From Ypsolopha sequella (lineage: Eukaryota > Arthropoda > Insecta > Lepidoptera > Ypsolophidae): 64,000 nt of DNA. A program made the translations under genes and the position numbers. Under the pieces are notes generated by a model. That model had not been told where the DNA came from. It saw nothing but the letters and a program-made list of their open reading frames with translations, and searched no databases. Each line of letters opens with the position of its first letter. The first letter of the stretch is position 1. The stretch covers positions 24,431,221 to 24,495,220 of the forward strand of contig OW203986.1 of the NCBI GenBank assembly GCA_934047225.1, in the 5' to 3' direction. Of the stretch, positions 1 through 56,638 are shown piece after piece.

Positions 1-2833
1 AATGTTTGTTTCTATACGAATTCTATTGCACAATAAAGCAACATTCAAATCGAAATAAAATTACCGAAAGAAGTAGTACATCACTATCAACAATGAAGTA
101 TTATATTTTTTAATTCCACTTGCTTATAAATAATTACGATACTTTGTAGGCATTTAAACGTCATAGGCGCCATCACTCGATGGCTCTACTGTAGTAACCA
201 TTTGTTAATAAACAGCGGTCCAACCATATCTCAACCATAACTCTCTATACTATAATTGTAATGTTGGAATTTATGGCATTGTTTTGTTACGAAGAAATGT
301 AGATTTCTCTACAGTTTTATAGGAAATCGTGCATGATAATATGTTATATCAGAAATTATAGGTAATAATGTATATACTTATAGGTATTTTATAGCCAATT
401 GAGCCCATTTATTTCAAGATACATACATTGTAGACGTGTACATAATCACAATGTTAATTTGTAAATTCTATCTAAAGTGTGTAAATTTCATTATTTTCGT
501 ATATAAATTAACCAATATTTTTTCATGATTTTTTGAAGCATGGTCCGATATGACGTCACTTGAGAATTTTAGACATTATACTGACATATTTGTCTGTTAA
601 TTATTATAAATAATAAATTATTGATTTGATAGAAAATTTAAAAATACGGGTACTATGTTTCACTAATATATTTAAGCACGATTACGCTACCGGTTTCATC
701 GATTTAATCGACATCTTCAGGCGAAAACAGTCACAATCACACACACCTTAACATAATTTAATCTAAGCGAATTATCATAGTTCCATCTTTATAACATTTT
801 GCAAAGAATATGTACCTTAGTATGTGAAATTGTGAAACTATTTTTATGGGTACATTATTTATAATCTACGTTTATTATTTTATTAAATACGTATATTTAT
901 TAACAGAAACATAAAAACTTAAATAACATGAAATAAAACTAAAATTAAACCTTACAAATTTACCTTTAAAACTAAAATGTCTCCTAAAGTAAAATTAAAC
1001 TAAATAGAAAATGTTTGCCATTTATAATCTTATTGTAAACGGATTAATATATATTTACGATGAAAATTATACATTTATATTTACATTGAACAAAAAATAG
1101 ATTGCTATTTGTAAAATTTTTATCGATATTAACCTATAAATAGGTACAAATTAACGTGTACATGTGAATATTAATCAAAACTGTACAACCAGAAGCTCAT
1201 ATTTTATTGGCAAAGAAAAATTATTAAGGTTTCTTCCTACGCCAACAACCTTGAACAGAGTAACTTTGTAACCATTTATACGGTAAGTAGCATTTTTAAT
1301 AGAAGAAAAATACATAGTAATAATCTACATGATGTGGTTTTTGCTTGAATTTTATTTTAATATTTATAGAAGCGAAGAAAAATAATCTAAATTTCCTATT
1401 ATTTCTCGGCTTTTTGACCACTTGTAACAATTATTTTACTGCTGCAGTTTTTTGATTAAAACAGTACAAAATTTATTAAACTTCCAGACAAAATGATGTA
1501 GCTTTCACTTCTTAGAATTTTATTTTATTATAATATATATAATACATAAAAAACAAACTATTTTGCACTTATCAGCCGCAGCGACTTACATAACAGCCAT
1601 GTTTGCAGTGCGAGCTGATTTGAACTTTATTTTAATATGGTGTTGTTCGAAGTTTCAACCACGGCGAATCGACTTGCTAATTTTTCCGACGGAGTCACCT
1701 TAAGGGTCCGTATAAGGTGAGATGCGCAACTTTAAATGACCGTTTCACATTGTGTAACTTGGTCAATCAGTTTAATAAAAATAATATAGATAGTAGACTA
1801 TAGGGCTGATCTATTCATCTTGGAAAAAACGCAAAAGCTTTAAGTTCGCTCGATGGAAAAAAATTACGAAGTTACCTCTAAATTTCATGTTTTTCGAGTT
1901 TTAAGGGCCTTCCTTAAATCATACAGCCTTGAAATTTGTATTAAAAATAAGTGAACAATAATCGTGTCTTAACAATAATCTTAGAATATTTTAATAATGT
2001 TATCTAGAAGCCGAGTTATTAAATAAAACTCGGGTATTTTTGGGCGCATGTTTCTTGGGGGCCGTAACGGCCATGGCTGAGAGTGCCCTATCTTAAACTA
2101 AAAGGAAACGTCGTCGTAGAGTTCAGTTCTGATTGACGCAAAATGAGATTCTCAATCTGACTTTATATGTAGCCTTAAGTTGACAATACCGCAAAAATAA
2201 CTTAGGCTTGTCGAATGGGCCAGATATATTTTCGGTGCAGTAAAACAAGATTAGGAGAGTGAAAAAATAGGAATAAAATATCGTAATATAACATAAAAGT
2301 TAAACGGTAACCTTATTGATTTAATTTACAGGTCAAGTCACAATGACACGTAATAAAATTAAGTAACGGATTAATCCTCGTAAATATTTATAATCCTTTG
2401 ACCGCCCGTTAAATAAATACATAAACCCAACTCCTTTATAGATGGCCATTAAAGTTCTAACAAACAGCTCTTTCTTTTAGAAAACGTAGTGAAAACTGGC
2501 CCTCAAGAATGAAATGTGAAGAAATACTATGAATTCATAAAGTTCATATCGTTGTTCCGGATGGTATCGTGTTGGAGCCATCAATGTGCCATATTCCGAT
2601 TTCTAATAGCTACATTACCATACCGTCTGAAGATGATGAGGCTTGCCTTCTTCGGTGTTGATTGGATAACTCACGCGCACCGCGGCGCACCACGCGCACC
2701 GTATACCTACGCATGTTAATTTTGTTTTTCGCTCCAAATTCGATATCTGATATGTCACTAAACTGTATCAGATTGAACCTTCTCTTTTTATGCAACTTAT
2801 CTAGGCCTTAATCACGTAAGAAATGTTAGAAAA
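1..2833. other. Gene-free AT-rich stretch
   Basis: I see no convincing exon here. The open frames are short, low in complexity and lack splice context. The only structured item recognised is the hammerhead-like motif at 685-723. A GC-richer patch near 2040-2110 has no coding signal. Confidence 0.6.
685..723 (-). ncRNA. Hammerhead-like motif, partly decayed
   Basis: Read on the minus strand this has core CTGAAGA, one extra base, stem II formed by GTCGAT and ATCGAT (one G-T pair) around a three-base loop, then GAA, the self-complementary word ACCGGT, and an A. Outer helix GCG/CGC is only 3 bp. The order of parts is that of a type I hammerhead with a loopless stem III. The extra base before stem II and the A at the cleavage position make activity uncertain. 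Confidence 0.4.
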
Positions 2834-8220: not shown

Positions 8221-8378
8221 GTGATTAGTGCAAACATGTGCTTGCTATTTTTATTTTATTATTATTTCGGTATGTACACAATAAAGGCGTTTTACTATTA
8301 TAGAATTAAATGAGACTTGAGGATAATTCATGATTTATATAAAAACGGCTCACCTCAATACGTGTTATGATCGGGAAA

Positions 8379-8421
8379 GCCGACCAGTTTCAGCAGATTT
8401 AAACTGCCTTCATCTGAGCGA
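8379..8421 (-). ncRNA. Hammerhead-like motif, variant core
   Basis: On the minus strand the core reads CAGATGA instead of CTGATGA, then an A, stem II GGCAG/CTGCT around a seven-base loop, GAA, the near-palindrome ACTGGT, and C. The last bases give the classical GTC cleavage triplet. The outer helix is weak and the core is altered, so this is probably a decayed copy. Confidence 0.35.
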
Positions 8422-8621
8422 TTGAAGACGTTTACGCGACGACGTTACGCCTTACTGCTGTGCTATATAAATCGCTTTTTACCATATTTATATTTGTTCC
8501 TAGAGTGTAAATAATAATAAAGTCAATGTTTTTTTATTTTTTCCAATATGTAGTATATGTTATCATTATCAGTTGCAATTACTTGTTAGTTAGTATGTAT
8601 GTATATTGTATGTATGTTAAT

Positions 8622-12729: not shown

Positions 12730-13734
12730 GGCTTTGGGTGGATATATTCTGCTAATGTAAACTTTCACTCTCGAAAATATACAAACTGGTCGTTTTTATG
12801 GGATGCGAACACTTTTTTTCAATTCTAACTTTCATTCTCAAAGACTGCCGTGTTTAGGTGATTTATTGTCGAATGATTGATTTAAATGCCAATTAGGCAC
12901 CATCATTAATGTTTGATTTGGTAACGTAATGGAAGATAGAGGAACTTGTAACGGCTTTTTGAGATAACAATCTTATATTGTGCCGCAATCGGAAATACGG
13001 ACAATTTTCAAATGCTTCTTTCGTGCTTCCTTTTCATTAGCAGCCGTGTTTATATGGAAAACCAAAGCAAAATTACCAAACTTGACCGCGTGATTGGTTA
13101 ATTGGGCTAGAAGAACGCAGAAAATAAATACCACAATACTGAATTTTCCCTCATTTGTTAAATTACATAACCGGGAAAGAATCGAGAAAACAAGTTTAAA
13201 AAGTTACTGAATCGGTATTACGTACTTATTTCACATTAAATTGTAGCCATTTATATGTATATCAAATATCTACAGGTAAATTGCCTTTAAACGAGTAAAA
13301 TTATTCTAGACAACTCCGAGATACAGCGCTTTCATAATCAGGTTTGAAATAAGCGCCGTAAACGAGTACGTAATTATTTTAAAGAGACGGCAAACCGTTT
13401 CTGCTTAGACAAGAGAAATCGCAAGGATGTAGCATTGAAAATGACATTTGAATAGAAAAAGTAAATACGAGGTAGCCTTTCCCGTAGACAAATAATATAC
13501 TTATTTAAAATTTACGATTAATTTGACTGGACAGACACTAACTTCTGTCACGCTACTTGGATTCGTGACTGCGATTATGAATTGATTACGTTACCTACGT
13601 AACGTTTGCACGTTTGTTTACCCGCCTTGGGACCGGTTTCCGAAAAGGAATTTGAAATAAGCATTTCCCATAGATATCATAATTACTCTAATACACATTT
13701 CATATCAGTGGCATTTCCCCAGACCCTATTTGAA
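12730..13734. other. Gene-free stretch
   Basis: No exon, repeat pair or structured motif recognised in this interval. Confidence 0.5.
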
Positions 13735-14030
13735 GCCCTTTTTTAAGAGGCTATGCGAATTTTATTTTTGTCACTGTCACTCCAAGCGAAAAATCGCGCA
13801 GTGCGAGAGGGGCGGATTCAGGGCGAAAGCGAAACATGTTAGTTTTATATTTTTTATAAAAAAACTAAAATAGCTAGCAAAATTTCAAATATTCAATCTC
13901 TAGGTATTGTTGAAACACACCTAATAAAATATGTTTGAGTTCTTTATATGGTTCCTATTCGTCAAACGAGGAGAATAAGTGTGTTCGAAGACCTCATTTC
14001 AACAATTATTTCTATCGATGAAAATGTATC
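13735..14030 (+). repeat. Repeat family R, copy
   Basis: Reads TTAAGAGGCTATGCGAATTT, a GC-rich block (GCGCAGTGCGAGAGGGGCGG) and, at the far end, ATTTCAACAATTATTTC. The same sequence in reverse complement is at 51985-52250. Two more diverged copies are at 3995-4262 and 6055-6205. No ORF. Confidence 0.7.
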
Positions 14031-14243
14031 CAAACATGTGTTCCAATTTCAAAACCCTAGATTATATAGTCAATATGCATATACCAGAAACTGATTATAA
14101 TTTTCCGTGTATTTCATGAAATACACAGAAAAGAAACACCCGTATTTTTTTCGCATATCGCCCTAAAAATGGTAACATGGTTTTTATTAGATGAAAACAA
14201 ACACTTTTGTACTGTTTCACAATTTACTTGATAACACAATTAA

Positions 14244-29743: not shown

Positions 29744-32700
29744 GTTAGTATCGTGTTTATGACCACCTTTGTGGTAAAGTCGTTTGAGCGTCTCGTCTAC
29801 TAGGGCCATATTTGTATTCGTACTGCGTGCTTCGGAAAGCACGTTACTATTGGTCCATATTTGTGCCGTACGACGATACGTAAGTACGACGATTGGTCTT
29901 GTAAATAAAACACATTCTTGGTAACTGTTCCACTTTTATATATATATCACACTAGCGACCGGTTTCGTTATAATAACATCGTCAGATACTGTGTCGTCAG
30001 GCTTTTAGATATGGATACGAATCATGAGATGGAATATTGTCTTTGTTTACATTTGTGATGTACATCATCACAAATGTAAACAAAGACAATATTCCATCTC
30101 ATGTACATCATCACAAATGTCAACAAAGACGAAATATTCCATCTCATGATTCGTAGCCATATCTAAAAACCTGACGATGTTATTATAACGAAACCGGTCG
30201 CTAGTGTAATATACATATTATAAAAGTGGAACAGTTACCAAGAATGTGTTTTATTTACAAGATGTTTCAAATGTTCCATCAAGAACCAACAACGACAAGT
30301 ATCAATTTCTTTAAGACGATTGGGTTTACCATGGGTCTTGCTGGAACGTATTAACCATTGGTGAAAAGTTGGTATACAATACACGGCTTCGCAGTCCATA
30401 CTCGGGAAAACCTCTGACTTTCTTTCCCCTTGCTCAGGAATCACAGGATCCGACAGGTATAACGTGCTCTGAAAATTTACACACTGCTTGTAATTGCAAA
30501 TACATACATAGGTGCATAAAGCCTGACCAAGAAAATAAAAAACCTCGCCTTATTGCGGAATTAATTTTTTTACAATTTTTTTCTACTGGCAACTTCAACT
30601 TTAAAACGTCATTATATCGATTGCTGTCAAAGTGTGGTGTTCTTTTTTCGTGTGTGCTGTCAGAGTGTTGCAATCATAAAATAAAAATCATAAAAGCAAA
30701 TGAGCAGGTTTTTTATTTTCCTGGTCAGGCTTTATATATACTCACACCTGTCGCCCAGAAGGGTAGGCAGAGATTACAGATTTCCATTTGTTACGATCCA
30801 GACACACCTCTCACATCCATCAATCTAGTCATACAAGCTCTTCTATTCCGAGTACTTTTGACATTGCCCTTCTTCAGTATGTCACCAATTTGGTCAGCAT
30901 ACGTCCTTGTAGGATAGCCTGGTCGAGCTGTACCTTGTACTTGCGCACCATAAACTTCTTTCGTCACTATAATTTGAAATACGTGCAATAAGTATATGTT
31001 TTTTTTTGCATTTACATAGAAAATATGATGGTAGGTATTTTTTTACGAAGAACTGAATTTTATTATTCGCGTTGTTGCAATGTTTTTCTATGGAAGCGGT
31101 TCATTATAATCAGTAGAGCATATGGGTTAATTTTTTGAGCACGTCATTAATGCACCCATTAAAATATATATGTATATATATCGAGGGCATCAAGCTGAAA
31201 GGGCGTATCTACAAAAATAAAAAGCATCGACTAGTTATAAAAAAATATTTTTTCTTTAATTGTAAAAACGCGTTTTCAAGTTGTAGCCTTAGGCATAATA
31301 GTACCTATAACCAGTGGAGCAACCGTTACTTTTTCAGTACATCATAGAGCTAATAAACATAGAGGTTCGCACAAAAAAGTCGGAATTTTCGGAATTCAAA
31401 AAATTTGTAGATACACCTTTTCAGTTTGATGCCCTCTATTATTACTAAGATTACAAAACATTTAGATCTAACTTTGAATGACTAGCTGTGATAGCTAGAA
31501 TTCGTATACCTTCAACCATCGTATATTCTGTAAGTGGCTTTTATTAGAGGTAGAATTCCGCAAATTATTTGAAAATTTAAAAGTGCTATAATTAGTTTAT
31601 TACCAAGGATAGTATATCTGTCTGATCACTTTGGTTGCTTCACTATCGGCCTTGCCTTCTCAAAACTCTTTCACCTTCTAAATAGAGCCGCCGAAGCTTT
31701 TAGTAAATGTTACCGCAAAACTTACGATACATCAACGTAACGCTTGCGGTTCCTGATTGCTTATTGCATTTAAAACAGACAGAGGTCGTACGTGATTGAC
31801 CGCAATGAATTTCATATATTTATTTAAGGTCTAAATATTTTGTGAGTTTGTGACTCGAGGTCAGAGCACGATGCTGCTCACGCCGCAAACGAGGCCGGAA
31901 AGTGAAAATGGTAAACGGCAATCAATTTTGAATCGAGCCGCTACTCTAAGATCAGATAGACTCAGCTATTTACATAATTGTCTCGTAATATACCACATAG
32001 CATCGCCAACATCCTCATCTTTCTATTTGATTAGACACACAAGGCATGATATCTCCGATCCGATCCATTGTCCGCTCTGAAAAATAAATGGGCCAGTGTT
32101 ATGTATGTGGCGAGTGCGTGCGGTGCATGAACGGTCCCGCTGCGCCGCAGTCACGGCGAAGCGGTGGTGCTGTGCGCGCCAACCGTAACGCATGGCATGT
32201 ACCACACTCGCCAACTGCAGTTCGGTGCAGTCTCTCGGCCGCGCGTTGCTCACCGCTCTCTGCACCATGAGACATGGGAAATACGACCTACATAAATCGT
32301 CCGCGAACGTCAGCGTGGGCACCTCCTACTCCTGGTACTACAGGAAGAACGACAACCCCCCGCCGGTCAAAGCCGCCACGCGCAAGAAGAAGACCCGCCT
32401 GACCCGCGCCGCCTCTGACTCTACCCTCTTCAGTGACTATGCTAACCAAATCATCATGTTTGATAAAGAGAAATCCGCTAACAAAAAGTGCAAGAAATCT
32501 GCGAGCGATGTAAGCAAACGGACTCGAGTCAAGTGCAGTTTGATCAACGCCAAACCGGTACATATGGAACCGTTCGTTGGAAACTTTTATTACGGTAAAC
32601 CGCTTCCAGGATATAAGTTTGGTGAAAAAAGTGATGCGAAAATTGAATACTTGCCCGATTCGGTAGCCGCGACACCTTCAGAGGACACAACTGCAGAATC

Positions 32701-44700: not shown

Positions 44701-46411
44701 CGTCTGCCAGTTCCTACTGGCACTAATAGACGCGTGTGATGCAGGCGGTGGGATGTGCTCTGGCCGCGTTGTCGGACTACACGGCGGTGGGCGCCAGCGA
44801 GGTGTCGCTTCGAGAGGGGCAGCATGCTGAGCTACTCAAGGTGGGCTGCGCCGGCTGGTGGTACGTGAGACTGGCAGGTTTGTACAACACTAACTGAAGG
44901 TCTTGAATCGGTCTTGCTCTTAGCCCAGATTAGCTGGACTTTAGAGCCCAGGAGGCCAATTCCGGTGGTATGGAAATGATCTCCCCGTGGTCTAAATATC
45001 AGGCGAGGAACTGCTTATTAGAAACTGTCGAAACAAAAAAAAAATTCTAACGACCTCCATTCATAGATGTTTGGTCGCAAATCAGCGAGATATTTCGACT
45101 GGTCGTTAGGTATGGAGATAAAATCTCCATTCATGTTAATTTTTTTATTTGGGGCCGCAACAGCTTATGATTAAGTTAATATTATATTAATAAATAATAG
45201 ATACAGTAAGTGAAGCCAATAATAGTTGTCCACCAGTGATACAATGAATGCGTTCCTAGTACAAATTAGATAGATTTAAATAAAACATTTAAATTATTAG
45301 ATTTTATTATTTTCAATTAACAATAATATTATTGTTTTTTGTTTTAATAAAGATAGGTACTGATATATATGATAATTTAAATATAAATACTGTTATCTCA
45401 AGATATATTTCGGGTCCGACCTGGATCCGGCATCAGTTGAGTATATTAATTTATTATTATTATTATTTAAATTCAGATACTTAACTGATGCCGGGTCCAG
45501 GTCGGACCTGAAATATATCTTTAGATAACATGTATTTATATTTAAATTATCATATATATCAGTACCTATTTATATTACATTAGGTGAAGATTTTTTATCG
45601 ACATTTAGTTATTTATTCTAAATTTTTACTGTACCTATTTGTCTGTTAATCTTCCTACGAGTAAATAAATAAATTAAAACAAAAAACCTTAAAAGCTTTT
45701 ACAGTGTATTTAATTTTAAAACAATAATATTATTATGATTTAGAGTTTACAAATGAAGATGGGAGATTTATCTCCATGGTCGTGATATTTGGCTCGAGCC
45801 CGGAATTGAGGTCCGGGAAAGAAATTCTGTAATATGTATTTCTGGATGGACATAGTGGTTGGCTTAGCAGAGATCCATCATTGTTACGCAAGAAAATATG
45901 CGAGGGGAGATCCAAGGTGGGATGAAAGAGGTGCGCGGTGAGAAGGGAAAGTCAGTGGCAGAGTAAATATATTATTTATAGAGTAGTGAATCTCACAGAT
46001 GCGTGCTCTACACGCCGTCTAAGCAAAGTTCGGGGGAGTTTCCATACAAATCGCGGCGCGGCGACGCACGTGTAGAGCACGCGTCTGCATGTGTGAGTTC
46101 GAATCTGAGCGCTTGTACTAAGATTCACTATATATTTTTACTCGGTTAGTAGCAAGCTATATGATAACTATAACTTAAATTAACTATTATGAAATCAGTA
46201 TTAACTAATTACCACCCCACCATAATTAAATTAGCCTCAATTTTGTTTACCTACTTTAATTCTTTATCATTTTAATATCATAAAATATATTCACAAACAT
46301 AATATATTTTCAGGCGGTGCGGGCGAGGGCTGGGCGCCGGCTGCGTATCTCGACCAGCGCAAGACCTCGCGCTCCTCCAGCCGCTCGCATGACCGACTGC
46401 AGGAGCACTAG
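29609..46411 (+). CDS. MCF2L: DBS/MCF2L-type Rho guanine-nucleotide exchange factor (DH-PH-SH3)
   Basis: Spliced from 29609-29743, 33646-33831, 34044-34235, 35776-35901, 36870-37067, 37764-37969, 38169-38313, 44745-44877 and 46314-46411; all junctions keep frame with GT-AG ends. A 36-nt exon at 41613-41648 may be added. From the ATG at 29609 the product is about 472 residues. DH domain, residues 22-200: CR1 LAELLQTERAYVQEL, then VLFGNLHELF, YYCQNIPRSE, the CR3 signature LLKPVQRITKYQLLLK and VNDSMHQIA. PH domain, about 215-335: RRRHIFLYEKAMLFC and ESVKGDARKFEVW. An acidic linker (DPSEDEEDDQEH) and a C-terminal SH3 (ALSDYTAVGASEVSLREGQ, GWWYVRLAG, WAPAAYL) follow. This order and the wording of the DH and PH motifs fit DBS/MCF2L, which loads GTP onto RhoA/Cdc42 at membranes. 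The Sec14 and spectrin parts usual in full-length DBS are not seen, so this is either a short isoform or the 5' exons lie elsewhere. Trio/Kalirin and PLEKHG4 are less likely given the single DH-PH and terminal SH3. Confidence 0.88.
29952..29985 (-). ncRNA. Hammerhead-like motif, left arm
   Basis: Minus strand: core CTGACGA, one extra base, stem II GTTAT/ATAAC with a very small loop, GAA, palindrome ACCGGT, C, then GCTAG. Core and GTC triplet are canonical. The outer helix (stem I) does not form with the immediate upstream bases, which argues against full activity of this copy. Confidence 0.5.
30171..30204 (+). ncRNA. Hammerhead-like motif, right arm
   Basis: Same core as the left-arm copy in opposite orientation: CTGACGA, stem II GTTAT/ATAAC, GAA, ACCGGT, C. 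Only one base pair of stem I can form. Together the two copies would be transcribed in opposite senses of the same palindrome. Confidence 0.5.
30518..30733. mobile_element. MITE inserted beside retroelement tail
   Basis: Ends AAAGCCTGACCAAGAAAATA and its near-complement TATTTTCCTGGTCAGGCTTT, followed in both arms by a run of A/T and AGGT/ACCT. Flanked by TA-rich bases consistent with a TA target. It lies next to the retroelement tail 30750-30990. No coding function. Confidence 0.65.
30750..30990 (-). pseudogene. Non-LTR retrotransposon ORF tail fragment, reverse copy
   Basis: Minus strand frame 30988-30791 reads VTKEVYGAQVQGTARPGYP, RTYADQIGDILKKGNV and STRNRRACMTRLMD, the same tail as 35062-35345. 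There is no reverse-transcriptase core, so a 5'-truncated copy. Confidence 0.65.
31180..31439. mobile_element. 260-bp MITE
   Basis: Ends GAGGGCATCAAGCTGAAAGG (then GCGTATCTACAAA) and, on the other side, TTTGTAGATACACC (then TTTTCAGTTTGATGCCCTC) are inverted repeats. The interior is AT-rich without an ORF. Confidence 0.7.
31440..32191 (+). other. Stretch ahead of the 406-codon frame
   Basis: Mostly noncoding. From an ATG at 31871 a short frame reads MLLTPQTRPESENG and continues to QSILNRAATLRSDRLSYL; it could be an exon but has no supporting context. GC content rises sharply after 32080, which may mark a promoter for the frame that follows. Confidence 0.3.
32192..33412 (+). CDS. 406-codon open frame inside the exchange-factor intron
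   Basis: The longest frame of the window, on the same strand as the host gene. The likely start is the ATG at 32267 (TGCACCATG), giving 381 residues beginning MRHGKYDLHKSSANVSVGTS; an upstream ATG is at 32192. The protein is basic, rich in Ser, Lys and Cys, with no signal peptide or membrane segment. A segment is repeated: LENIKKDYKRIMKEWNNTI and, near the end, LEAIYEDYDRRLQDWCDTI. Two readings fit. It could be an alternative first exon spliced from TCG|GTACTT at 33375 (phase 0) to the DH exon at 33646, replacing CR1. Or it could be a nested intronless gene ending at 33412 with AATAAA at 33517. The weak donor favours the second; strand and phase favour the first. I do not recognise the family. 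Confidence 0.7.
   Translation: MACTTLANCSSVQSLGRALLTALCTMRHGKYDLHKSSANVSVGTSYSWYYRKNDNPPPVKAATRKKKTRLTRAASDSTLFSDYANQIIMFDKEKSANKKCKKSASDVSKRTRVKCSLINAKPVHMEPFVGNFYYGKPLPGYKFGEKSDAKIEYLPDSVAATPSEDTTAESLTTAPTVVDIPEFVRNPLYGCLEAQIPTPELTGSTMSKDSQLKSSSCTELRKTMCSSKNSHDVLENIKKDYKRIMKEWNNTIQDHYTTISHNKRGSTMCRRSNTDSYVRSLHSTLSCRKAPSRCNKSFGNNHYDYAYSQASRNCRKRSTLTSKNKKSKGLLRSNTFTNNWTATLQNLKKKANFWKIHKSLTPSECECLEAIYEDYDRRLQDWCDTISQCSSFLNSVLYPFLLYRSI
33517..33522 (+). terminator. Possible polyadenylation signal
   Basis: AATAAA lies 105 bases after the stop codon of the 406-codon frame. It would fit a nested gene that ends within the intron, but such hexamers are frequent in AT-rich introns. Confidence 0.3.
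33646..33831 (+). CDS. MCF2L: Exchange factor exon: DH middle helices
   Basis: Acceptor CCCCTAG, donor AAG|GTAAGT, 62 codons, phase 0. Codes GYKEEIDKPENQHLLPAAL, then SEVLFGNLHELFTFHQDIF and ALCFVEK. These match DH helices 2-4 of the DBS family. Confidence 0.92.
34044..34235 (+). CDS. MCF2L: Exchange factor exon: DH CR2-CR3
   Basis: Acceptor ATCCACAG, donor AAG|GTATCT, 64 codons, phase 0. Holds FRLYSYYCQNIPRSERL and the DH signature LLKPVQRITKYQLLLK, the most conserved part of the exchange domain. Confidence 0.95.
34420..34545. repeat. Short tandem repeat, period about 58 bp
   Basis: Two and a half units sharing AATTTGATGRATAAAGTC, GGTTGAACTGAGAACATAAT and TTTGAAAATGTA. A more diverged unit precedes at about 34340-34420. 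Lies in an intron. Confidence 0.75.
35062..35345 (+). pseudogene. Non-LTR retrotransposon ORF tail fragment
   Basis: Frame 35053-35451 reads MLRLLGHVERMNESRVTKEI, ARRGCPRRTYADQIADILKK and STRNRRACMIRLMDVEEV. This is the C-terminal tail of a lepidopteran reverse-transcriptase ORF. Sister fragments are at 6640-6866 and 30750-30990. Inserted in the intron between DH exons. Confidence 0.7.
35776..35901 (+). CDS. MCF2L: Exchange factor exon: last DH helix
   Basis: Acceptor TTTGCAG, donor CCT|GTGAGT, 42 codons, phase 0. Codes DLLRYGECGSMTSGLQQALD and then CVNDSMHQIAITGVP, the long final DH helix running into the PH domain. Confidence 0.93.
36025..36178. repeat. Partial MITE C, reverse orientation
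   Basis: Carries the complement of the left third of 29176-29577: TACGTAGATGTAAAACGTTG to ATTTCATATGTAAAGACCTA. Lies in the intron before the PH exon. Confidence 0.65.
36449..36808. mobile_element. 360-bp foldback MITE before the PH exon
   Basis: Arms of about 120 bases begin TACACAGTGCTTTAAATCCG and end with the complement, with TA at both boundaries (Tc1/mariner-type). The inner block GGTTATAAAGTTGTTTACA is duplicated in the right arm. The right end is 61 bases before the PH exon. Confidence 0.8.
36870..37067 (+). CDS. MCF2L: Exchange factor exon: PH first half
   Basis: Acceptor GATCCCCAG, donor CAG|GTGAGA, 66 codons, phase 0. Codes LSQQGELLMQGSFLVA, an arginine-rich loop RLRIRPRRRHIFLYEKAMLF and the strand ending FKHELQ, as in DBS PH domains. 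Confidence 0.93.
37068..37763. other. Intron without recognised feature
   Basis: AT-rich intron between the two PH exons, with no repeat pair seen. Confidence 0.5.
37764..37969 (+). CDS. MCF2L: Exchange factor exon: PH second half
   Basis: Acceptor CGTTTCCAG, donor CACAG|GTTAGT, 68 codons plus two bases. Codes SQIGLTESVKGDARKFEVW, then the PH C-terminal helix AWVDRIKRVLLDQLKEL and a basic tail. Confidence 0.93.
38169..38313 (+). CDS. MCF2L: Exchange factor exon: acidic linker
   Basis: Acceptor CTAATCAG, donor CCG|GTATGT, enters in phase 2 and leaves in phase 0. Very GC-rich. Codes a flexible Ala/Pro stretch (TTAPRAAPHPRAAS) followed by DPSEDEEDDQEH, a disordered link between PH and SH3. Confidence 0.82.
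38597..38860. mobile_element. Foldback MITE with TA flanks, copy 2
   Basis: Same element as 4863-5128, beginning TACAAGGTGACTTTTTGATC. 264 bp against 266 bp with scattered substitutions. In the intron between the acidic-linker and SH3 exons. Confidence 0.8.
38929..38966 (+). ncRNA. Hammerhead-like motif
   Basis: CTGATGA, extra A, stem II GTTCAC/GTGACC (one mismatch) with a seven-base loop, GAA, palindrome ACGT, T. Only one pair of stem I is visible. The change C for G at one stem II position suggests a decaying copy. Confidence 0.45.
39178..39452 (-). repeat. Dispersed lepidopteran repeat, short reverse copy
   Basis: Begins TAGGGTTCTGTACTCAAAGG and ends CGAGTCCGACTCGCACTTAG, the reversed ends of the element at 2834-3670, with most of the middle deleted. 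Confidence 0.7.
39583..39710. mobile_element. 128-bp foldback
   Basis: Arms TTACTACAAAACGGGTTTAA and, after GACAGTGTTTAAATCTG, the complementary CAGATTTAAACACTGTC and GTTTTGTAGTAA. Noncoding small MITE. Confidence 0.7.
39711..41612. other. Intron without recognised gene
   Basis: The 114-codon frame near 40454 has no splice support or family match. No other structure seen. Confidence 0.45.
41613..41648 (+). CDS. MCF2L: Candidate 36-nt microexon between linker and SH3
   Basis: Preceded by acceptor GTTGCAG and followed by donor GAG|GTGCGC, phase 0 at both ends, coding MASPRNFEVGQE. It is an isolated GC-rich island in an AT-rich 6.4-kb intron and would insert 12 residues just before the SH3 domain without disturbing the frame. 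A stronger-looking donor 8 bases later (CAG|GTGACA) would break the frame into the SH3 exon. Real use is unproven. Confidence 0.4.
41815..42205. repeat. Dispersed repeat D, copy 1
   Basis: Contains AGTAGTTTATGCTAC, TACGTTTTTCAATGCATAGT and GTTCGGTTTTGATGCATA. Repeated at 43540-43890. This copy has an extra 38-base piece reading ACACGAGCGTAGCGAGTG. Confidence 0.75.
42206..43539. other. Intron stretch with retroelement-like scraps
   Basis: Around 42590-42620 and 43195-43265 are AAATCCGTTMAGT-type and AAACAGACAGACAGA-type words, typical of dispersed retroelement 3' ends in Lepidoptera. No exon seen. Confidence 0.4.
43540..43890. repeat. Dispersed repeat D, copy 2
   Basis: Same as 41815-42205 with few differences, in direct orientation about 1.7 kb downstream, both in the intron before the SH3 exon. 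Confidence 0.75.
44745..44877 (+). CDS. MCF2L: Exchange factor exon: SH3 first part
   Basis: Acceptor TGATGCAG, donor CAG|GTTTGT, 44 codons plus one base. Codes ALAALSDYTAVGASEVSLRE, then AELLKVG and CAGWWYVRLA. The ALSDY and WW motifs are SH3 ligand-groove hallmarks. Confidence 0.92.
45397..45441 (-). ncRNA. Hammerhead-like motif with closed stem I
   Basis: Minus strand: stem I CTCAA/TTGAG (5 bp), core CTGATG with C where the family has A, one extra C, stem II GGATCC/GGACCC (one mismatch) with loop AGGTC, GAA, palindrome ATATAT, C. All three helices are present; the core change may reduce activity. Confidence 0.55.
45480..45524 (+). ncRNA. Hammerhead-like motif, opposite arm
   Basis: Plus strand partner of 45397-45441: stem I CTTAA/TTTAG (one mismatch), CTGATGCC, stem II GGGTCC/GGACCT (one G-T pair) with loop AGGTC, GAA, ATATAT, C. 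Confidence 0.5.
46314..46411 (+). CDS. MCF2L: Exchange factor last exon: SH3 end and stop
   Basis: Acceptor ATTTTCAG, enters in phase 1. Codes GAGEGWAPAAYLDQRKTS and a short Ser/Arg tail ending RLQEH, then TAG at 46409-46411. The stop lies in CACTAGTCT, which is also part of the 38-bp repeat unit that follows. Confidence 0.92.
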
Positions 46412-48400
46412 TCTCCAATAGTGGTCTGTGTGACGCGCAACTACTAGTCTACATCCTAGAGTGGTTTGTGTGACGCGTAGCCACTAGTCTATATTCTTGT
46501 GGTCTGTGTGACGCGCAACCACTAGTCTATATTCTTCTGGTCTGTGTGACGCGCAACCACTAGTTTACATTCTTGTGGTCTGTGTGACGCGCAACCACTA
46601 CTCTACATTCTTGTGGTCTGTGTGACGCGCAGCCACTAGTCTATATTCTTATGGTCTGTGTGACGCGCAACCACTAGTCTATATTCTTCTGGTCTGTGTG
46701 ACGCGCAACCACTAGTCTATATTCTTGTGGTCTGTGTGACGCGCAACCACTAGTCTATATTCTTCTGGTCTGTGTGACGCGCAACCACTAGTTTACATTC
46801 TTGTGGTCTGTGTGACGCGCAACCACTACTCTACATTCTTGTGGTCTGTGTGACGCGCAGCCACTAGTCTATATTCTTATGGTCTGTGTGACGCGCAACC
46901 ACTAGTCTATATTCTTCTGGTCTGTGTGACGCGCAACCACTAGTCTATATTCTTGTGGTCTGTGTGACGCGCAACCACTAGTCTATATTCTTCTGGTCTG
47001 TGTGACGCGCAACCACTAGTTTACATTCTTGTGGTCTGTGTGACGCGCAACCACTACTCTACATTCTTGTGGTCTGTGTGACGCGCAGCCACTAGTCTAT
47101 ATTCTTATGGTCTGTGTGACGCGCAACCACTAGTCTATATTCTTATGGTCTGTGTGACGCGCAACCACTAGTCTATATTCTTCTGGTCTGTGTGACGCGC
47201 AACCACTAGTCTATATTCTTCTGGTCTGTGTGACGCGCAACCACTAGTTTACATTCTTGTGGTCTGTGTGACGCGCAACCACTACTCTACATTCTTGTGG
47301 TCTGTGTGACGCGCAACCACTAGTCTATATTCTTCTGGTCTGTGTGACGCGCAACCACTAGTTTACATTCTTGTGGTCTGTGTGACGCGCAACCACTACT
47401 CTACATTCTTGTGGTCTGTGTGACGCGCAGCCACTAGTCTATATTCTTATGGTCTGTGTGACGCGCAACCACTAGTCTATATTCTTCTGGTCTGTGTGAC
47501 GCGCAACCACTAGTCTATATTCTTGTGGTCTGTGTGACGCGCAACCACTAGTCTATATTCTTCTGGTCTGTGTGACGCGCAACCACTAGTTTACATTCTT
47601 GTGGTCTGTGTGACGCGCAACCACTACTCTACATTCTTGTGGTCTGTGTGACGCGCAGCCACTAGTCTATATTCTTATGGTCTGTGTGACGCGCAACCAC
47701 TAGTCTATATTCTTATGGTCTGTGTGACGCGCAACCACTAGTCTATATTCTTCTGGTCTGTGTGACGCGCAACCACTAGTCTATATTCTTCTGGTCTGTG
47801 TGACGCGCAACCACTAGTTTACATTCTTGTGGTCTGTGTGACGCGCAACCACTACTCTACATTCTTGTGGTCTGTGTGACGCGCAGCCACTAGTCTATAT
47901 TCTTATGGTCTGTGTGACGCGCAACCACTAGTCTATATTCTTCTGGTCTGTGTGACGCGCAACCACTAGTCTATATTCTTGTGGTCTGTGTGACGCGCAA
48001 CCACTAGTCTATATTCTTCTGGTCTGTGTGACGCGCAACCACTAGTCTACATTCTTGTGGTCTGTGTGACGCGCAGCCACTAGTCTACATCCTAGTGGTC
48101 TGTGTGACGCGCAACTACTAGTCTACATGCTAGTGGTTTGTGTGACGCGTAGCCACTAGTCTAAATTCTTGTGGTCTGTGTGATGCGCAGCCACTAGTCT
48201 ATATTCTTCTGGTCTGTGTGACGCGCAACTACTAGTCTACATGCTAGTGGTTTGTGTGACGCGCAGCCACTAGTCTATATTCTTCTGGTCTGTGTGACGC
48301 GCAGCCACTAGTCTACATCCTAGTGGTCTGTGTGACGCGCAGCCACTAGTCTACACTAGTGGTTTGTGTAACGCGCAACCACTAGCTAGTGTAGTGGTCG
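46405..48400. repeat. 38-bp minisatellite with 228-bp higher-order repeat
   Basis: About 52 units, typically GTGGTCTGTGTGACGCGCAA then CCACTAGTCTATATTCTT. Unit variants come in a fixed order of six, giving a 228-bp period: the marker variant AGTTTACATTC recurs at 46563, 46791, 47019, 47247, 47361, 47589 and 47817, with one half-step of 114. The blocks at 46791-47360 and 47361-47930 look like a duplicated 570-bp segment, at least for their first two blocks. Single-base drift increases toward the 3' end. The unit length is not a multiple of three and each unit has in-frame stops, so it is not coding. Confidence 0.97.
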
Positions 48401-50026: not shown

Positions 50027-51872
50027 CTAATAACTTCATAAATCAGGTGTCAATTTTTAAAATAATTAGTTTGACAACCTGTAAATGCTTTAAGTAAGGT
50101 ACCACTTCAAGTAGTGGAAGCAAGAAAGCATCGCGCGATTCATTGACGAATCCCCTCAATGATGATGGAATAAACCAAGTGATTTGGTTCGTGTATACCT
50201 TGTTTTCTTTGACTACAGAGCGAGCGATCAGGGAAGTGCTAGCTATTGGTACCTTATTCAAAGTTTCCCTAGTAGATAAATAAATAAAGTACTTAACTCA
50301 GCTTTAACTTTTTCAGTATTTCTCAACACTAGGGTCGCACGGATTGCTACAGTTCGGACCAGTACAGACGCGCGTAAATTAGCTGTCATTTTAACAGCTG
50401 AAACTCCGTTGCACTTGCAACGCTTTCTCTGTCTTACTTCACGCAAGTCCGCCTTTTGCGCTGGCCCGAATTAAGGTCATCGCTCATTACAACGGATCGA
50501 CACCAGACCACCTCAAAGTAAAGCATTGAAATATGAGCTTTAAATCGTTTAACGTACGTGATATTTTTGAAGAATGAGACGGCCCGCGCGTCGTATACTT
50601 GCAAAATGTAACGTACGCAACACGATTTAAAGCTCAAGTTTTCACATTTCAACCAACTATTAGGTGGTCAGGTGCCGAGGCGTTATTATTTGCAACGGCC
50701 TTAATGAGGTTATGTTCCAGGCTTGTACGAAAAAGCTGGTCGAAGTTATACCTTCATCTAATTTGAAGTCAATAAGAGAAGGACGTCTGTAATGTTGAGA
50801 AATGCAATAATTAACCTTAACCTTTCAAACAATTTTACCTTAAAGTGCAAAATAATATAAACGGCTGTGAGAATCTAAGTGATGAATTTGTAACATTTTT
50901 AATATCCTACCGTTTACCTTCAAAATGTAATGCAATCTTCCTCGTTTTTAAAATTTGTATGTATATTAAGTATACAATCTACCTATACTAACTGTAACAT
51001 TCTATAATGGTTCTCACTTATCTACACGTAGTATCTAGTATTAATCCTCAACTTTTAAATATCTATAAAAAGCTTAATATTCACTGTTAATTAGAAGCAG
51101 AAGTAGCAGAATTTGTAGAATCGATACCCTTACTTTGGGTTGTGTGTTTTGAACTCAAAAAGTAGATTGTTTCGTAAAGTCTATTTCTAGAGTAGCTGGA
51201 AAGTCGGTCAATGAGCTTTACGCATTTTATACTAGGTTTTCCTCTATGTGGACCACATACCACTTAACGCAGTGATTTGTGTCAATTGATAAAGATTGTA
51301 TGGCAAGATTGACGCATCGTTTTTTTTTGACGTGTACAGTTTTTCCAGCTGACCTAGAAACAGAGTTTATCATTTTATAAAGTAATATAATTATATGAAC
51401 AAAGTCAATAGAAGTTGTTGAAAGTTTGGAATCTAGGAACACAGGTAGAAATTACAAGATTAAAATGTATAATACCCTTGATATTTATGTTTCAAAATAT
51501 AAAAGTCCGCAAAATTCGAAATCTGGATAAAATAAATGCTTTAATTTTGTAGGGATGAAAAATCTTTATGAAAATTTACTTTTATTTGGCGTGAAACGTG
51601 TATGTCTATGCCTTATTCGAGCTTAAAGTGATTGTTGAGAACAATTTAAAATCTAGAAATTCTTGTAATCTGTACGAAATGAATCACAATCCGCAATGTT
51701 AATGGAAATAAATGCAGCAAATTAATATTGGGCTTTTATTAAACCTTTCTAAATTACTATTTCCTAAATTTATAAATTACATTTGTTTAAAAATATACAC
51801 TATAACAGCTTTTAAAGTTTTTTAAAAATATATAAATATACTGATAAATAAGATAAACAAATACAAGGAAAT
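50027..51872. other. Intergenic stretch
   Basis: Contains a smaller inverted pair at 50528-50640 (TGAGCTTTAAATCG and CGATTTAAAGCTCA). No gene recognised. Confidence 0.45.
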
Positions 51873-51917
51873 CTCAAGATATATTTCGGGTCCGACCTGG
51901 ACCCGGCATCAGTTGAG
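51873..51917 (-). ncRNA. Hammerhead-like motif, complete helices
   Basis: Minus strand: stem I CTCAA/TTGAG, CTGATG then CC, perfect 6-bp stem II GGGTCC/GGACCC with loop AGGTC, GAA, palindrome ATATAT, C. Nearly identical to 45397-45441 but without the palindromic partner, so a solo copy of the same element family. Confidence 0.55.
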
Positions 51918-51984
51918 TATCTTAATTAAAATTTTAAGTATCTTAATTAGGGTTTTGACATAGGAAAATATGGTTGAATAAATT

Positions 51985-52250
51985 TTCCTCGATAGAAATA
52001 ATTGTTGAAATGAGGTCTTCAAACACACTTTTTCTCCTCGTTTACCATAAACAGAACTCAAACATATTTTATAAGGTGTGTTTCTAATAAAATTAGAACT
52101 TTTTCTAGCTATATTTTAGTTTCTTTAATAAATATACAAAACCAACTTTTTTCCCTTTTGCCCTGAATCCGCCCCTCTCGCACTGCGCGATTTTTCACTT
52201 GGAGTGACAGCGACAAAAATAAAATTCGCATAGCCTCTTAATATGGTAAT
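51985..52250 (-). repeat. Repeat family R, reverse copy
   Basis: Reverse complement of 13735-14030: CTCGATAGAAATAATTGTTG to CGCATAGCCTCTTAA, with the GC-rich CGCCCCTCTCGCACTGCGCG in between. Confidence 0.7.
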
Positions 52251-52845
52251 ATTAGCGTTTTTTTATTATAAAAAAAACCAATGATCGAGTAAACATTTTA
52301 ATTTGAACTTTTCTGTTGTTTTTGCGTCACTGCCACGTAGATTACCATAAAACTGTATTTCCTTAGTTTGTATCAAATACTGTATTAGCTTTATAGTTCC
52401 TTGCTTGATTGATAACAGCCTGAAGTATGTTTCTTGAAAATTAAGTCATCGAAAAAGGTGTTAAGAAATGGGAGCTTTTTCGATGAATACATTTTTCAAC
52501 TTGCAGTTTCAATATAAAATGTGATAAATGTGCCGTTTTTCATGACAACCTAAGCTGGACCAACAAACAAATAATAAAAAATTTAAAAACCGTTTTCCTC
52601 AAACATGTTGATTGGGCCCCTTTTCGAATCACCTCTTCATATATTTCGGGTTTATAACTTCTGTATGTCTAAATGACATGCGTAATCTCTGACACTATGG
52701 AATTAATTGCTATGAAATTAAAATTTACAAAAATTAGAGACAACTCGCCATTTTGTTTTATTGCAATATCTCAAATGAATAAATAATATTTTTAAGCCTT
52801 TTTTTGTTTTAAATAGATTATAATATATAAATAAAAAGTATTAAA

Positions 52846-52995
52846 TTAACATTATATAATTGCAGTATAGAAACGCAGAAAGAAAGGTAAATCACGATGT
52901 GAGGAGCTCTGAACCAGGAGATTTACTTTCATCCAGGATCACATCCAGATTTACTTTTCTTTCTGCGTTTCTATACTGCAATGATATAATGTTAA
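52846..52995. mobile_element. 150-bp foldback
   Basis: Arms contain TTGCAGTATAGAAACGCAGA and the complement TCTGCGTTTCTATACTGCAA, extended by TAACATTATAT/ATATAATGTTA. Noncoding. Confidence 0.75.
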
Positions 52996-53078
52996 TTTGT
53001 ATCTCCGTGCGATGGATAAATTGCCAAGTGTTCAAACATAGACATTTATTTCTATCATAGTAAAAAGTATTAATTTGT

Positions 53079-53121
53079 TTCGAAATATATTTCGGCCAAC
53101 TTGTGGCCGTCTTCAGTCGAA
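53079..53121 (-). ncRNA. Hammerhead-like motif, canonical core
   Basis: Minus strand: stem I TTCGA/TCGAA (5 bp), canonical core CTGAAGA, one extra C, stem II GGCC/GGCC with loop ACAAGTT, GAA, palindrome ATATAT, T. This is the best-preserved copy of the window. Against it: the extra base before stem II. Confidence 0.55.
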
Positions 53122-54366
53122 TAAGTAAATAAAAAAGATATTTGACATGTACATATAGATGTTGACATTGACACATAATTCTAAACTGGCGAGAAATTTA
53201 GCGAGGAATCAGAGAAAAAGGATAGAATAACCACTGACCTACACATTCCGTACTTGAGAATAACAAGGTAAATTTAATTAAACCGGAGGACAGATGGGAA
53301 AGCAGGAAATGGCAAGACGTGGGAGAAATGTGGCAAGAGGTATTTGTCAAAAGTTGTGCACTTTAAGCTAAGACACAGCCTTCCTGTGAGGGCAAGAAAT
53401 GGGTGAAGGGCCTAGGAATTTTAAGTACGGGAAAAAGAAGGGTGAGGTCTCTGTACAGCGGTAAATGCAAGAGGAAAAGATATAGAAAGTGGTGGACTGA
53501 TGGTTAGTGGTCTGATTAGGTCAAAGAAATGTCAAATGTTTCTGTGTTAAGCAGAAGGGGACGGAGATAGTATTAGTTGGTAAAAATGTAAAGAAAAGGA
53601 GGGAGAGAAAGGAAGGAGTTAGAGGCCACAGCTAAGGCAAGATGATGATAGGTGAGAGTGGGAAGTCGGCATATATTTTGAGTGGAGACGCTTTCGTAGG
53701 CCAGAAGCAACATAATAAATCACAAAAACCAATGTGTTCAGCAGACTTGTCGCCTAACATTGTATTCACCACATAGGGTCGGTGCCATTTTAGACAAAAC
53801 CAAATAAAATTATTGAGAATGAGCACGCACGATAGTAAATTATAAATAAAATAAATAGTAACCATAAACAAGGAGCGATTTATTTGTTAAAGTACAAACA
53901 ATGACAAGATAACAATGCGTTATTTACCCAGACTTATCTGTGTATTTACCAAAATATCAACATATGTGCTTTTGTGAGTAGGTATGGTTATCTTAAGAGC
54001 AGACATCATGACGTGACCAACTCAGTTGTGGGCGCGGCCAGATGTCATGCTGTTTCATTTGGCAATAATATGCATCCTCCACGAAACTTGCGAAGACAAT
54101 ACAATCGTGCCGATTACGTCGCGGACCCAAAATTTAATACTTGTTTCAGGAGAAACATGATTTTGGCAAGATTGTGGACGTTTTCAAAATTTTTTTGATT
54201 ATTATTAATCTAGATAACATTTTCGATGTTTGACTCATACTTATTCATTTAACATAAAAGCGGTCACGACGAGCTCCAACTTCCCTTCGAAATCGAACTA
54301 GCTAAAAAGCAAAAAGCTGGAATGGGACTTTTTTTTTTTTGCTTGGTCTGGTTACCTTCTTAATCC
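53122..54366. other. Intergenic stretch
   Basis: A purine-rich part (53280-53660) resembles decayed retroelement sequence but I cannot assign it. No exon. Confidence 0.4.
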
Positions 54367-55319: not shown

Positions 55320-55709
55320 TTACTTGGGCATGTAGCCCCGAGAATAAATACGGCTCTTGAAGATGTTGTCAATCCGACTAAAGACCTCCTCAGCTGATTT
55401 AGCAGCATCGACTCTGTAGTGCAGACCTTTCCTCAGGTAGTAATCAATTAGAGGAACAGTTTGGGTGTGGTAAGTGGCCAAACGCTTTTTAAGTGCCTCT
55501 ACATTGTCATCAGAACGTTTCACAAGGGGCTCACCAGTCAAATCATCAGTCATTGGTTTCCTCGGTGGGTGGAATTCTTCATGATAGCTGCGACCACTGG
55601 AAGGGTGGATCAGACGGCCTGTGATTCTCCTTACAAGCAAGCTATCACTTATTCCAAACTCAATAACAGCATCTAAAGCAGATTTCCTTTTTGCTAATAG
55701 TTCATCTAG
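55320..55709 (-). CDS. Adk2: AK2 exon 3
   Basis: Acceptor TTTTTTCAG|CTA; 129 codons plus TAA at 55320-55322. Covers LDELLAKRK through the LID to the end [11 protein letters not shown]. Confidence 0.95.
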
Positions 55710-56638
55710 CTGAAAAAAGAAAACAAAACATTTTATTATCAATAAGTCATTTATTATGTCAGATGTTTTATAACCTTGCTTGAAGTTTATTAATTAATTC
55801 TTGTTATAATATATTTTAAACGTTTCACTATTAAAACAGCTTGAGAGTGTAAAATAAATAAAAAATATATTGAATGAATAATTACCTTTTCAGCTTGTGG
55901 GACAGTTCTGGGAAAGCCGTCAAGCAAGAATCCGTTCTTGCACTCAGGCTTATCCAAGTTCTGGTCAATCATGTCAACAACCATTTCATCAGACACCAGT
56001 TTGCCCTCATCCATGGTTTTCTTGAGGCGATGGCCCAATTCCGATCCTGAGGACACTTCAGCACGAAGCATATCCCCAGTAGATAAGTGGCATACACAGT
56101 ACTTTGCTTTGAGAAGAGGGGCCTAAAAAGTCAAAAAGTTATTTGTGAATACATTATCTTTCAAATGACTTACCTATGGCTATTTATAAACTACTAGCCT
56201 TTTGGCCACAGTTTCACCTGCACAAATGTAATTTAAGACTATGTCCCTGGGAAATTGCCCCCCCCTCCAGGTAAGAAACTATAGCCTATGTCCAAGTGGA
56301 GAGTCTAACCATTACATTTTTATGAATTGGTTCAGTAATTTCACAGATTACCACCCCACATACAAACAAACAAATTTTTCCTCTCTGTAAAGTACATAAA
56401 AAAGACAAGAGTGCAACGATACATTGTTTGAGTCGAAAATAGCCAAACAGTACAAAAGACGATGCAAACGCCCCCTTATCTACACTCCGACCGTAAAATC
56501 AAGTATGTAATCAGAGGTCAAAGTTTATCCACATACCTGAGTTCCTTTGCCCGATCCTGGCGGTCCCAGTAGCACGGCATTGATGCCGGTGGGTTCATTA
56601 ACCGCCCAAGGCTTAGTGGCTGTGGCTGCTGGAGCCAT
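55320..56638 (-). CDS. Adk2: Adenylate kinase 2
   Basis: Catalyses ATP + AMP to 2 ADP; AK2 is the isoform of the mitochondrial intermembrane space. Complete in three exons (56537-56638, 55886-56122, 55320-55709), all phase 0, GT-AG, 242 residues, close to the 239-241 usual for AK2. Residues 25-34 [10 protein letters not shown] are the P-loop. The AMP site includes [10 protein letters not shown] (48-57) and [10 protein letters not shown] (98-107). The LID starts near [20 protein letters not shown] (140-159), and the following RSDDN (178-182) is the conserved Arg/Asp motif. The LID has the long form and lacks the zinc cysteines of bacterial enzymes. The N-terminus [16 protein letters not shown] lacks a strong presequence, as is usual for AK2. 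AK1 and AK3 are excluded by the long LID with this wording. The gene is head to head with Nup188. Confidence 0.97.
55886..56122 (-). CDS. Adk2: AK2 exon 2
   Basis: Acceptor TTTTTAG|GCC, donor AAG|GTAAT; 79 codons. Codes the AMP-binding domain, with DGFPRT near the end. Confidence 0.95.
56160..56420. repeat. Retroelement-like sequence in AK2 intron 1
   Basis: Contains ATGTCCCTGGGAA, CCTATGTCCAAGTGGAGAG and CATACAAACAAACAAA, words common in dispersed retroelements of Lepidoptera. Similar ATGTCCCTAGGGA words are near 61165 and 61770. Confidence 0.4.
56537..56638 (-). CDS. Adk2: AK2 exon 1
   Basis: ATG at 56636-56638 (plus-strand CAT), donor CAG|GTATGT. Codes [16 protein letters not shown] and the P-loop. 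The donor cuts directly after GKGTQ. Confidence 0.95.

Follow-up and report, generated by a model that had tools for sequence, protein, structure and literature searches.

The window analysed here, a stretch of 64,000 nucleotides from the genome of the moth Ypsolopha sequella, contains on its minus strand a whole minimal type I hammerhead-like motif (Table 1), whose letters from 53121 to 53079 read TTCGA-CTGAAGA-C-GGCCA/TGGCC-GAA-ATATAT-T-TCGAA. In a type I hammerhead CUGANGA and GAA flank stem II, an A15.1-U16.1 pair begins stem III and base 17 is not G. All of these features are present in the motif at 53116(-), where base 17 is U, as is the nearly loopless, self-complementary stem III (ATATAT) of the dimeric hammerheads of Penelope-like elements (PLEs); the usual abutment of stem II on A9 is absent, one base intervening. 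The anatomy given in the original prediction, made from the letters alone, matches the minus strand base for base, and the hammerhead-like layout, with its very short self-complementary stem III, appears to be of the dimer type. We take the cleavage step to lie between U17 (53084) and 53083 on the minus strand, as hammerhead anatomy would place it.

Table 1. Parts of the hammerhead-like motif, its surroundings and related sites in the window
Feature	Position	Strand	Basis or remark
Whole minimal type I hammerhead-like motif	53079..53121	-	sequence and descriptor searches
Stem I 5' strand, TTCGA	53117..53121	-	partner TCGAA 53079-53083; sequence and folding
Core C3-A9, CTGAAGA	53110..53116	-	sequence
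Extra C, A9/stem II junction	53109	-	descriptor; predicted partner G12
Stem II hairpin, GGCCA-CAAGT-TGGCC	53094..53108	-	sequence and folding
Stem II strands and loop	GGCCA 53108-53104, TGGCC 53098-53094; loop CAAGT 53103-53099	-	
Core GAA (G12-A14)	53091..53093	-	sequence
Stem III, ATATAT, self-complementary	53085..53090	-	sequence; two-copy pairing presumed
Base 17, T	53084	-	sequence
Pseudo-LTR remnant adjoining motif	53062..53131	-	alignment to genome copies
Pseudo-LTR remnant, distal part	52750..52847 (start approximate)	-	alignment; contiguous with first part in L264
Stretch with foldback interrupting pseudo-LTR	52848..53060	.	boundaries inferred
ACCGGT-group hammerhead-like site with extra T and A at base 17	682..726	-	descriptor
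ACCGGT-group hammerhead-like site lacking stem I; first half of inverted pair 29897-30262	29951..29991	-	descriptor
ACCGGT-group hammerhead-like site lacking stem I; second half of inverted pair 29897-30262	30165..30205	+	descriptor
ATATAT-group hammerhead-like site with C9, within foldback 45345-45577	45479..45525	+	descriptor
ATATAT-group hammerhead-like site with C9	51872..51918	-	descriptor
PLE family B-like motif with CAGATGA core, extra A and ACTGGT	8376..8422	-	descriptor (match 8416)

A loose descriptor permitting one core mismatch found eight candidates in the window, in each of which a single base separates the core from stem II, compared to a mean of 0.83 matches and a maximum of 5 (none at 8) in 400 first-order Markov shuffles, where insert lengths of 0, 1, 2 and 3 were evenly spread (88/80/87/78 matches). 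With an exact core, a stem II of at least 4 and four of six stem I pairs, two sites remained (53116 and 720), against a total of two in the 400 shuffles. A strict descriptor (exact core, stem II at least 4, a self-pairing A....T six-mer, base 17 other than G and stem I at least 5) had 53116(-) as its sole match in the window, and 2,812 first-order Markov shuffles gave none. That 53116(-) is the best-preserved site stands, since among the other loose matches stem I is absent from 29985 and 30171, the core reads CAGATGA at 8416 and CTGATGC at 45485 and 51912, and a weak match at 13692-13722 (minus strand, CTGGGGA) is probably due to chance. The site at 51872..51918 lies approximately 1.2 kb from the main motif on the same strand.

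Several other features of the window were noted in passing. One listed genome copy reads CTGATGATGCC where the ATATAT-group sites at 45479-45525 and 51872-51918 have CTGATGC, relative to which an ATG triplet may be missing from both window sites through loss. The foldbacks at 29897-30262 and 45345-45577, which contain head-to-head motifs, gave Rfam microRNA-precursor scores below gathering and are likely false leads. At 46421-48385 a 38-bp unit is repeated in tandem approximately 52 times (92% matches), and a dispersed repeat is present in inverse orientation at 13743-14076 and 51931-52241 (83–91% alike), its copy near 52 kb adjoining a hammerhead-like motif and that at 13743-14076 being without one. 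An adenylate kinase exon (55320-55790, minus strand) is best matched by Manduca sexta (90% over 80% of the query), and among 120 listed of 2,137 matches the named ones are mostly from Lepidoptera.

Related motifs were counted in the window's own genome (866,838,800 bases), with reversed patterns as controls. A pattern with the stem II of the site plus ATAT matched 11 times and its reverse not at all. Broader patterns, which required exact CTGANGA and GAA and left the number of bases after A9 free, gave 6,694 matches versus 29 reversed for CTGANGA..GAAATATAT (ATATAT as stem III) and 2,526 versus 13 for CTGANGA..GAAACCGGT (ACCGGT as stem III). The motif could in principle be a chance resemblance or an ordinary palindromic repeat, which would suit both its overlap with a 14-nt palindrome and the lack of an Rfam hammerhead match (below), but the 2,812 shuffled windows yielded no equivalent and the genome counts are some 200 times those of the reversed patterns, and we regard this explanation as so improbable as to be negligible.

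The listed places referred to here and below are about the first 100 each of the 6,694 ATATAT matches, the 2,526 ACCGGT matches and the 2,834 and 550 matches of the family A and anchor searches described later. When stem II is placed in its best register, a single base follows A9 in 98 of 100 listed ATATAT copies (at least three pairs in 91) and in 93 of 100 listed ACCGGT copies (at least three pairs in 86), seven rows in each list having a winning one-base register with fewer than three pairs. The single extra base remarked on in the original prediction, and found in all eight loose matches of the window, is therefore the rule among listed copies in the genome (191/200). The first base after A9 is C in 96, T in 3 and G in 1 of the 100 listed ATATAT copies, and T in 99 and C in 1 of the 100 listed ACCGGT copies. 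A fuller descriptor run over 236 stretches (1.89 Mb) revealed no relative among the viral contig stretches listed, of which one scan supplied at most 120, and one of 96 stretches from other genome contigs (L180) passed it; L180 is no test of the extra base, as its search pattern required one base after A9. This stretch (L180:1-1600) is the start of a contig filed as a Campylobacteraceae MAG, with animal-like DNA followed by bacterial-looking DNA, and carries a PLE-type hammerhead with an extra T and, by eye, SINE-like boxes.

Alignment to genome copies places the motif in a pseudo-LTR. Positions 53062..53131 (minus strand) are 98.6% identical over 70 nt to L247, 98.5% over 65 nt to L245 and 91% over 69 nt to L264, and the flank from 53141 is 78% identical over 82 nt to L277. 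The foldback-containing stretch that interrupts the pseudo-LTR has edges alike at 15 of 16 bases (52832-52847 and 53061-53076). No PLE open reading frame was seen in the window (Pfam search of 10 of 13 long frames, and a motif scan), and 53079..53121 itself is, on its alignment to L277, a solo remnant with no open reading frame nearby.

Relatives elsewhere in the genome (L265, L277, L285 and L286) carry their motifs in PLE pseudo-LTRs. In L265 and L277, which are near-identical also beyond the element and perhaps represent a segmental duplicate, an exact-core ATATAT motif follows a PLE-like open reading frame by 340–350 nt on the same strand. Reverse transcriptase (RVT_1) matches fell below the cut-off in this frame (18.7 bits) and in L289; a GIY-YIG motif was recognised by eye in the translations of L249 and L265/L277, with no GIY-YIG match from Pfam. 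The frame of a second set of elements, family A, matched RVT_1 above the cut-off (42.9 bits), with a GIY-YIG-like end by eye, and a search with its protein gave at least 57 genome matches (55 of 3,648 candidates scored), at least 11 of them belonging to family B, which is 67% identical to family A. Four near-identical PLE copies, one with an in-frame stop, lie head to tail 2,715 bp apart at C14:2975357-2985958. The motif between family A frames is TCGCC-TTGATAA-T-GCCGA..TCGGT-GAA-ACGGT-T-GGC, and that between family B frames, TCGCC-CAGATGA-A-GGCAG..CTGCT-GAA-ACTGGT-C-GGC, resembles window site 8416. The PLE origin put forward for the motif is supported by relatives that adjoin PLE reverse-transcriptase frames.

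Retrozymes had been named beside PLEs as possible carriers. A metazoan non-LTR retrozyme is built of short repeats in direct tandem and gives rise, through its hammerheads, to small circular RNAs, and a type I-like motif within short repeats would agree with this. However, of 39 pairs of close neighbours among the listed places, 37 have a head-to-head order (100 ATATAT places and the 98 of 100 ACCGGT places on C1), no tandem array was found at the site, direct tandem repeats of 150–450 bp, a retrozyme feature, were absent both at the site and among the listed places, and relatives adjoin PLE-like frames. The retrozyme is therefore a poor fit, and we consider it very improbable. Among inverted PLE copies of a rotifer, head to head is given as the most frequent order in the passage concerned of PMC3846280.

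The original prediction expected related copies to keep the helices by compensatory change, and such change was sought among copies in the same genome. The 88 sites collapsed to 53 distinct motifs, one of which was too short and was dropped, leaving 52 for base 17; pairing was assessed in 34 distinct strings with a six-base and 7 with a four-base stem III, a set to which neither the C9 sites nor family A or B contributed. Stem II occurs as GGCCC/GGGCC, GATCC/GGGTC, GACCC/GGGTC, GACTCC/GGAGTC, GGCCTCA/TGAGGCC, GTTA/TAAC and GTCGT/ACGAC, and stem I as TTCGA/TCGAA, TTCAA/TTGAA, ACTTGA/TCAAGT, CCC/GGG, AGC/GCT, CGC/GCG and TGC/GCA. In the 34 motifs with a six-base stem III, 0.76 of stem I cells and 0.98 of stem II cells were paired, compared to 0.54 and 0.69 with shuffled partners, and none of 2,000 partner shuffles, which ignore relatedness of the copies, reached the observed value for either stem. 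The expectation of compensatory change was thus upheld for stems I and II in this group; the 7 motifs with a four-base stem III displayed no covariation (stem I 0.75 versus 0.77, stem II 0.95 versus 0.93). Self-pairing of stem III is no independent evidence because the search patterns imposed it, and the same applies to the choice between four and six bases, which was partly made on stem I fit. Of the 52 distinct motifs, 27 have A at base 17, 15 have T and 10 have C, and none has G.

The hammerhead covariance-model check proposed originally came out negative. Rfam gave no hammerhead in the window at the gathering threshold or at E up to 10, none in the 121 bases around 53079..53121, none in 20 exact-core ACCGGT loci (E up to 5), and none in one ATATAT locus or in L180. 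Since loci of relatives are likewise without a hammerhead match, this silence seems to be a property of the variant rather than of a single copy, and points to a blind spot, as every stretch scanned was without a reported Rfam hammerhead model.

Folded alone, the 66 nt around the site are more stable than most shuffles (z = -2.59; 3 of 200 equally stable), and in the predicted monomer fold the extra C is paired with G12 (P 0.98). The predicted probability of this pairing depends on the extra base at the site (C 0.98, U 0.72, A 0, G 0), and freeing G12 is predicted to cost about 2.5 kcal/mol. The predicted fold of two copies is a long plain duplex without a double hammerhead, because CGAAATATATTTCG forms one 14-nt palindrome at the site.

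G12 is the general base of the hammerhead. Its pairing with the extra pyrimidine would fit poor activity without protein, and the lizard PLE hammerhead is described in part of PMC11167929 as cleaved only after protein was added. A viroid hammerhead with an unpaired A after A9 indicates that one base at this position is compatible with activity, and the extra base may be a harmless bulge retained by shared ancestry. We dropped the idea, suggested by the lizard element PAc, that the base is there because A9-U-G is the start codon of the open reading frame: in the ACCGGT motifs inspected by eye an ATG so formed soon reaches a stop, and the ATG taken as start lies 94 nt (family A) or 85 nt (family B) after position 3.

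Alternatively, the motif may be a hammerhead-descended fold in which G12 is held in a stem II pair by the extra pyrimidine and cleavage has become irrelevant; if retained at all, the fold would now be a structured end of the PLE, in RNA or DNA form, with a role in protein binding, as a reverse-transcription stop or in self-priming into head-to-head copies. The near-fixed C and T of the listed copies (96/100 and 99/100), both able to pair with G12, favour this, but such uniformity may reflect ancestry since many copies may descend from few masters, and the extra base of family B is A, predicted not to pair with G12.

Altered cores in both open-frame PLE families examined (16 regions of family A, 4 of family B) point the same way. 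The family A motif has 2,834 genome matches compared to none for the reversed pattern, and although this pattern also permitted C3 and G8, U3 and A8 (C3U and G8A) occur in every one of the 100 listed copies and in 15 of 16 family A pseudo-LTRs, the sixteenth lacking the anchor; A4 (U4A) is present in all four family B regions. Positions 3 and 8 of the hammerhead pair with each other, and the U3-A8 double change could preserve this pair, which would count against loss of the ribozyme. According to a section of PMC11167929, C3G or G8C kills cleavage by the lizard PLE hammerhead and the double change restores part of it. As stem III of family A is also one base shorter than ACCGGT, loss of function in this family is as likely as a retained 3-8 pair.

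The insertion boundaries of copies bear on the same alternative. Boundaries estimated from copies selected for their core are biased. An anchor starting exactly at the predicted cleavage step was used in one family with a four-base stem III, giving 550 genome matches, from which places 11–30 of the list were sampled (L344 and L345 overlap, so that 21 rows represent 20 places). Fifteen of these 20 anchor-chosen copies are preserved as far back as stem I or the first base of the core, nine of the 15 matching from the first base of stem I, and the remaining five are broken inside the motif. The proposal that insertions start at the cleavage site was not borne out for this family, as none of the 20 copies did so. 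This agrees with the portion of PMC11167929 on insertion, in which hammerhead mutants of the lizard PLE still insert and no reads end at the presumed cut. Set against a fold that has given up cleavage are the thousands of copies with exact CTGANGA and GAA, though the patterns required these, and the consistent avoidance of G at base 17, and we regard it as possible but rather unlikely.

We consider it likely that 53079..53121 is a solo PLE pseudo-LTR remnant carrying the minimal type I hammerhead of the element, a reading that overlaps with the foregoing alternative on identity and mechanism. It has to accommodate the silence of Rfam at the site and in the relatives scanned, the predicted C-G12 pair and two-copy duplex, the altered cores of both open-frame families, the failure of any anchor-chosen copy to start at the cleavage site, the lack of a PLE frame in the window and the seven motifs without covariation. 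Under this reading a double hammerhead with a bulged extra base would arise when stem III, being self-complementary, pairs between separate transcripts or between neighbouring copies of a tandem transcript. The ground state would instead have the extra pyrimidine paired with G12, and such pairing would make cleavage weak or dependent on help, for example from a PLE protein. The solo copy probably has no role for its host now. It is a tentative and less probable proposition that the PLE hammerhead of this moth lineage has been gated or retired, a fixed pyrimidine-G12 pair shutting the core, the core itself being altered in the two open-frame families examined, and copies being inserted uncut; if true, the part played by the fold in PLE replication would be that of a structural end or of a switch opened by protein, and cleavage would be optional.

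The motif is of a kind already known, the minimal hammerheads of PLEs, which were reportedly treated by Cervera and de la Pena in 2014 and by Lunse, Weinberg and Breaker in 2017. Parts of PMC6155905, PMC7761336 and PMC7229834 describe such hammerheads, and the primary papers are cited in passages of PMC10085705 and PMC8490949. The literature searched contained no lepidopteran account of Penelope hammerheads, which does not imply absence elsewhere, and the role of the hammerhead for Penelope elements is called a mystery in a passage of PMC7761336. The moth genome provides a natural test set: its copies number in the thousands and fall into two groups by stem III, their extra base is almost fixed and occupies the position of that of the viroid, and altered-core PLE families exist beside exact-core ones.

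The PLE minimal hammerheads share with the moth motif a very short stem III, type I order, location in PLE pseudo-LTRs, thousands of dispersed copies and proposed action as dimers, as far as sections of PMC6155905 and PMC7761336 describe them. Newt and axolotl type I hammerheads likewise have a weak stem III and are more efficient as dimers, but differ in their direct tandem repeats of approximately 330–350 bp and their loop-loop contacts (parts of PMC6155905 and PMC7229834). Anolis Poseidon (PAc), to judge from the relevant passages of PMC11167929, carries its hammerhead at the junction of pseudo-LTR and open reading frame of a tandem PLE, and cleavage is dispensable for its insertion in vitro, but its reading frame starts at stem II. 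In moth families A and B the ATG taken as start is 94 and 85 nt past position 3. The plus-strand hammerhead of CChMVd, as described in part of PMC3705267, resembles the moth motif in having one unpaired base after A9, although it belongs to a plant viroid and the base is A.
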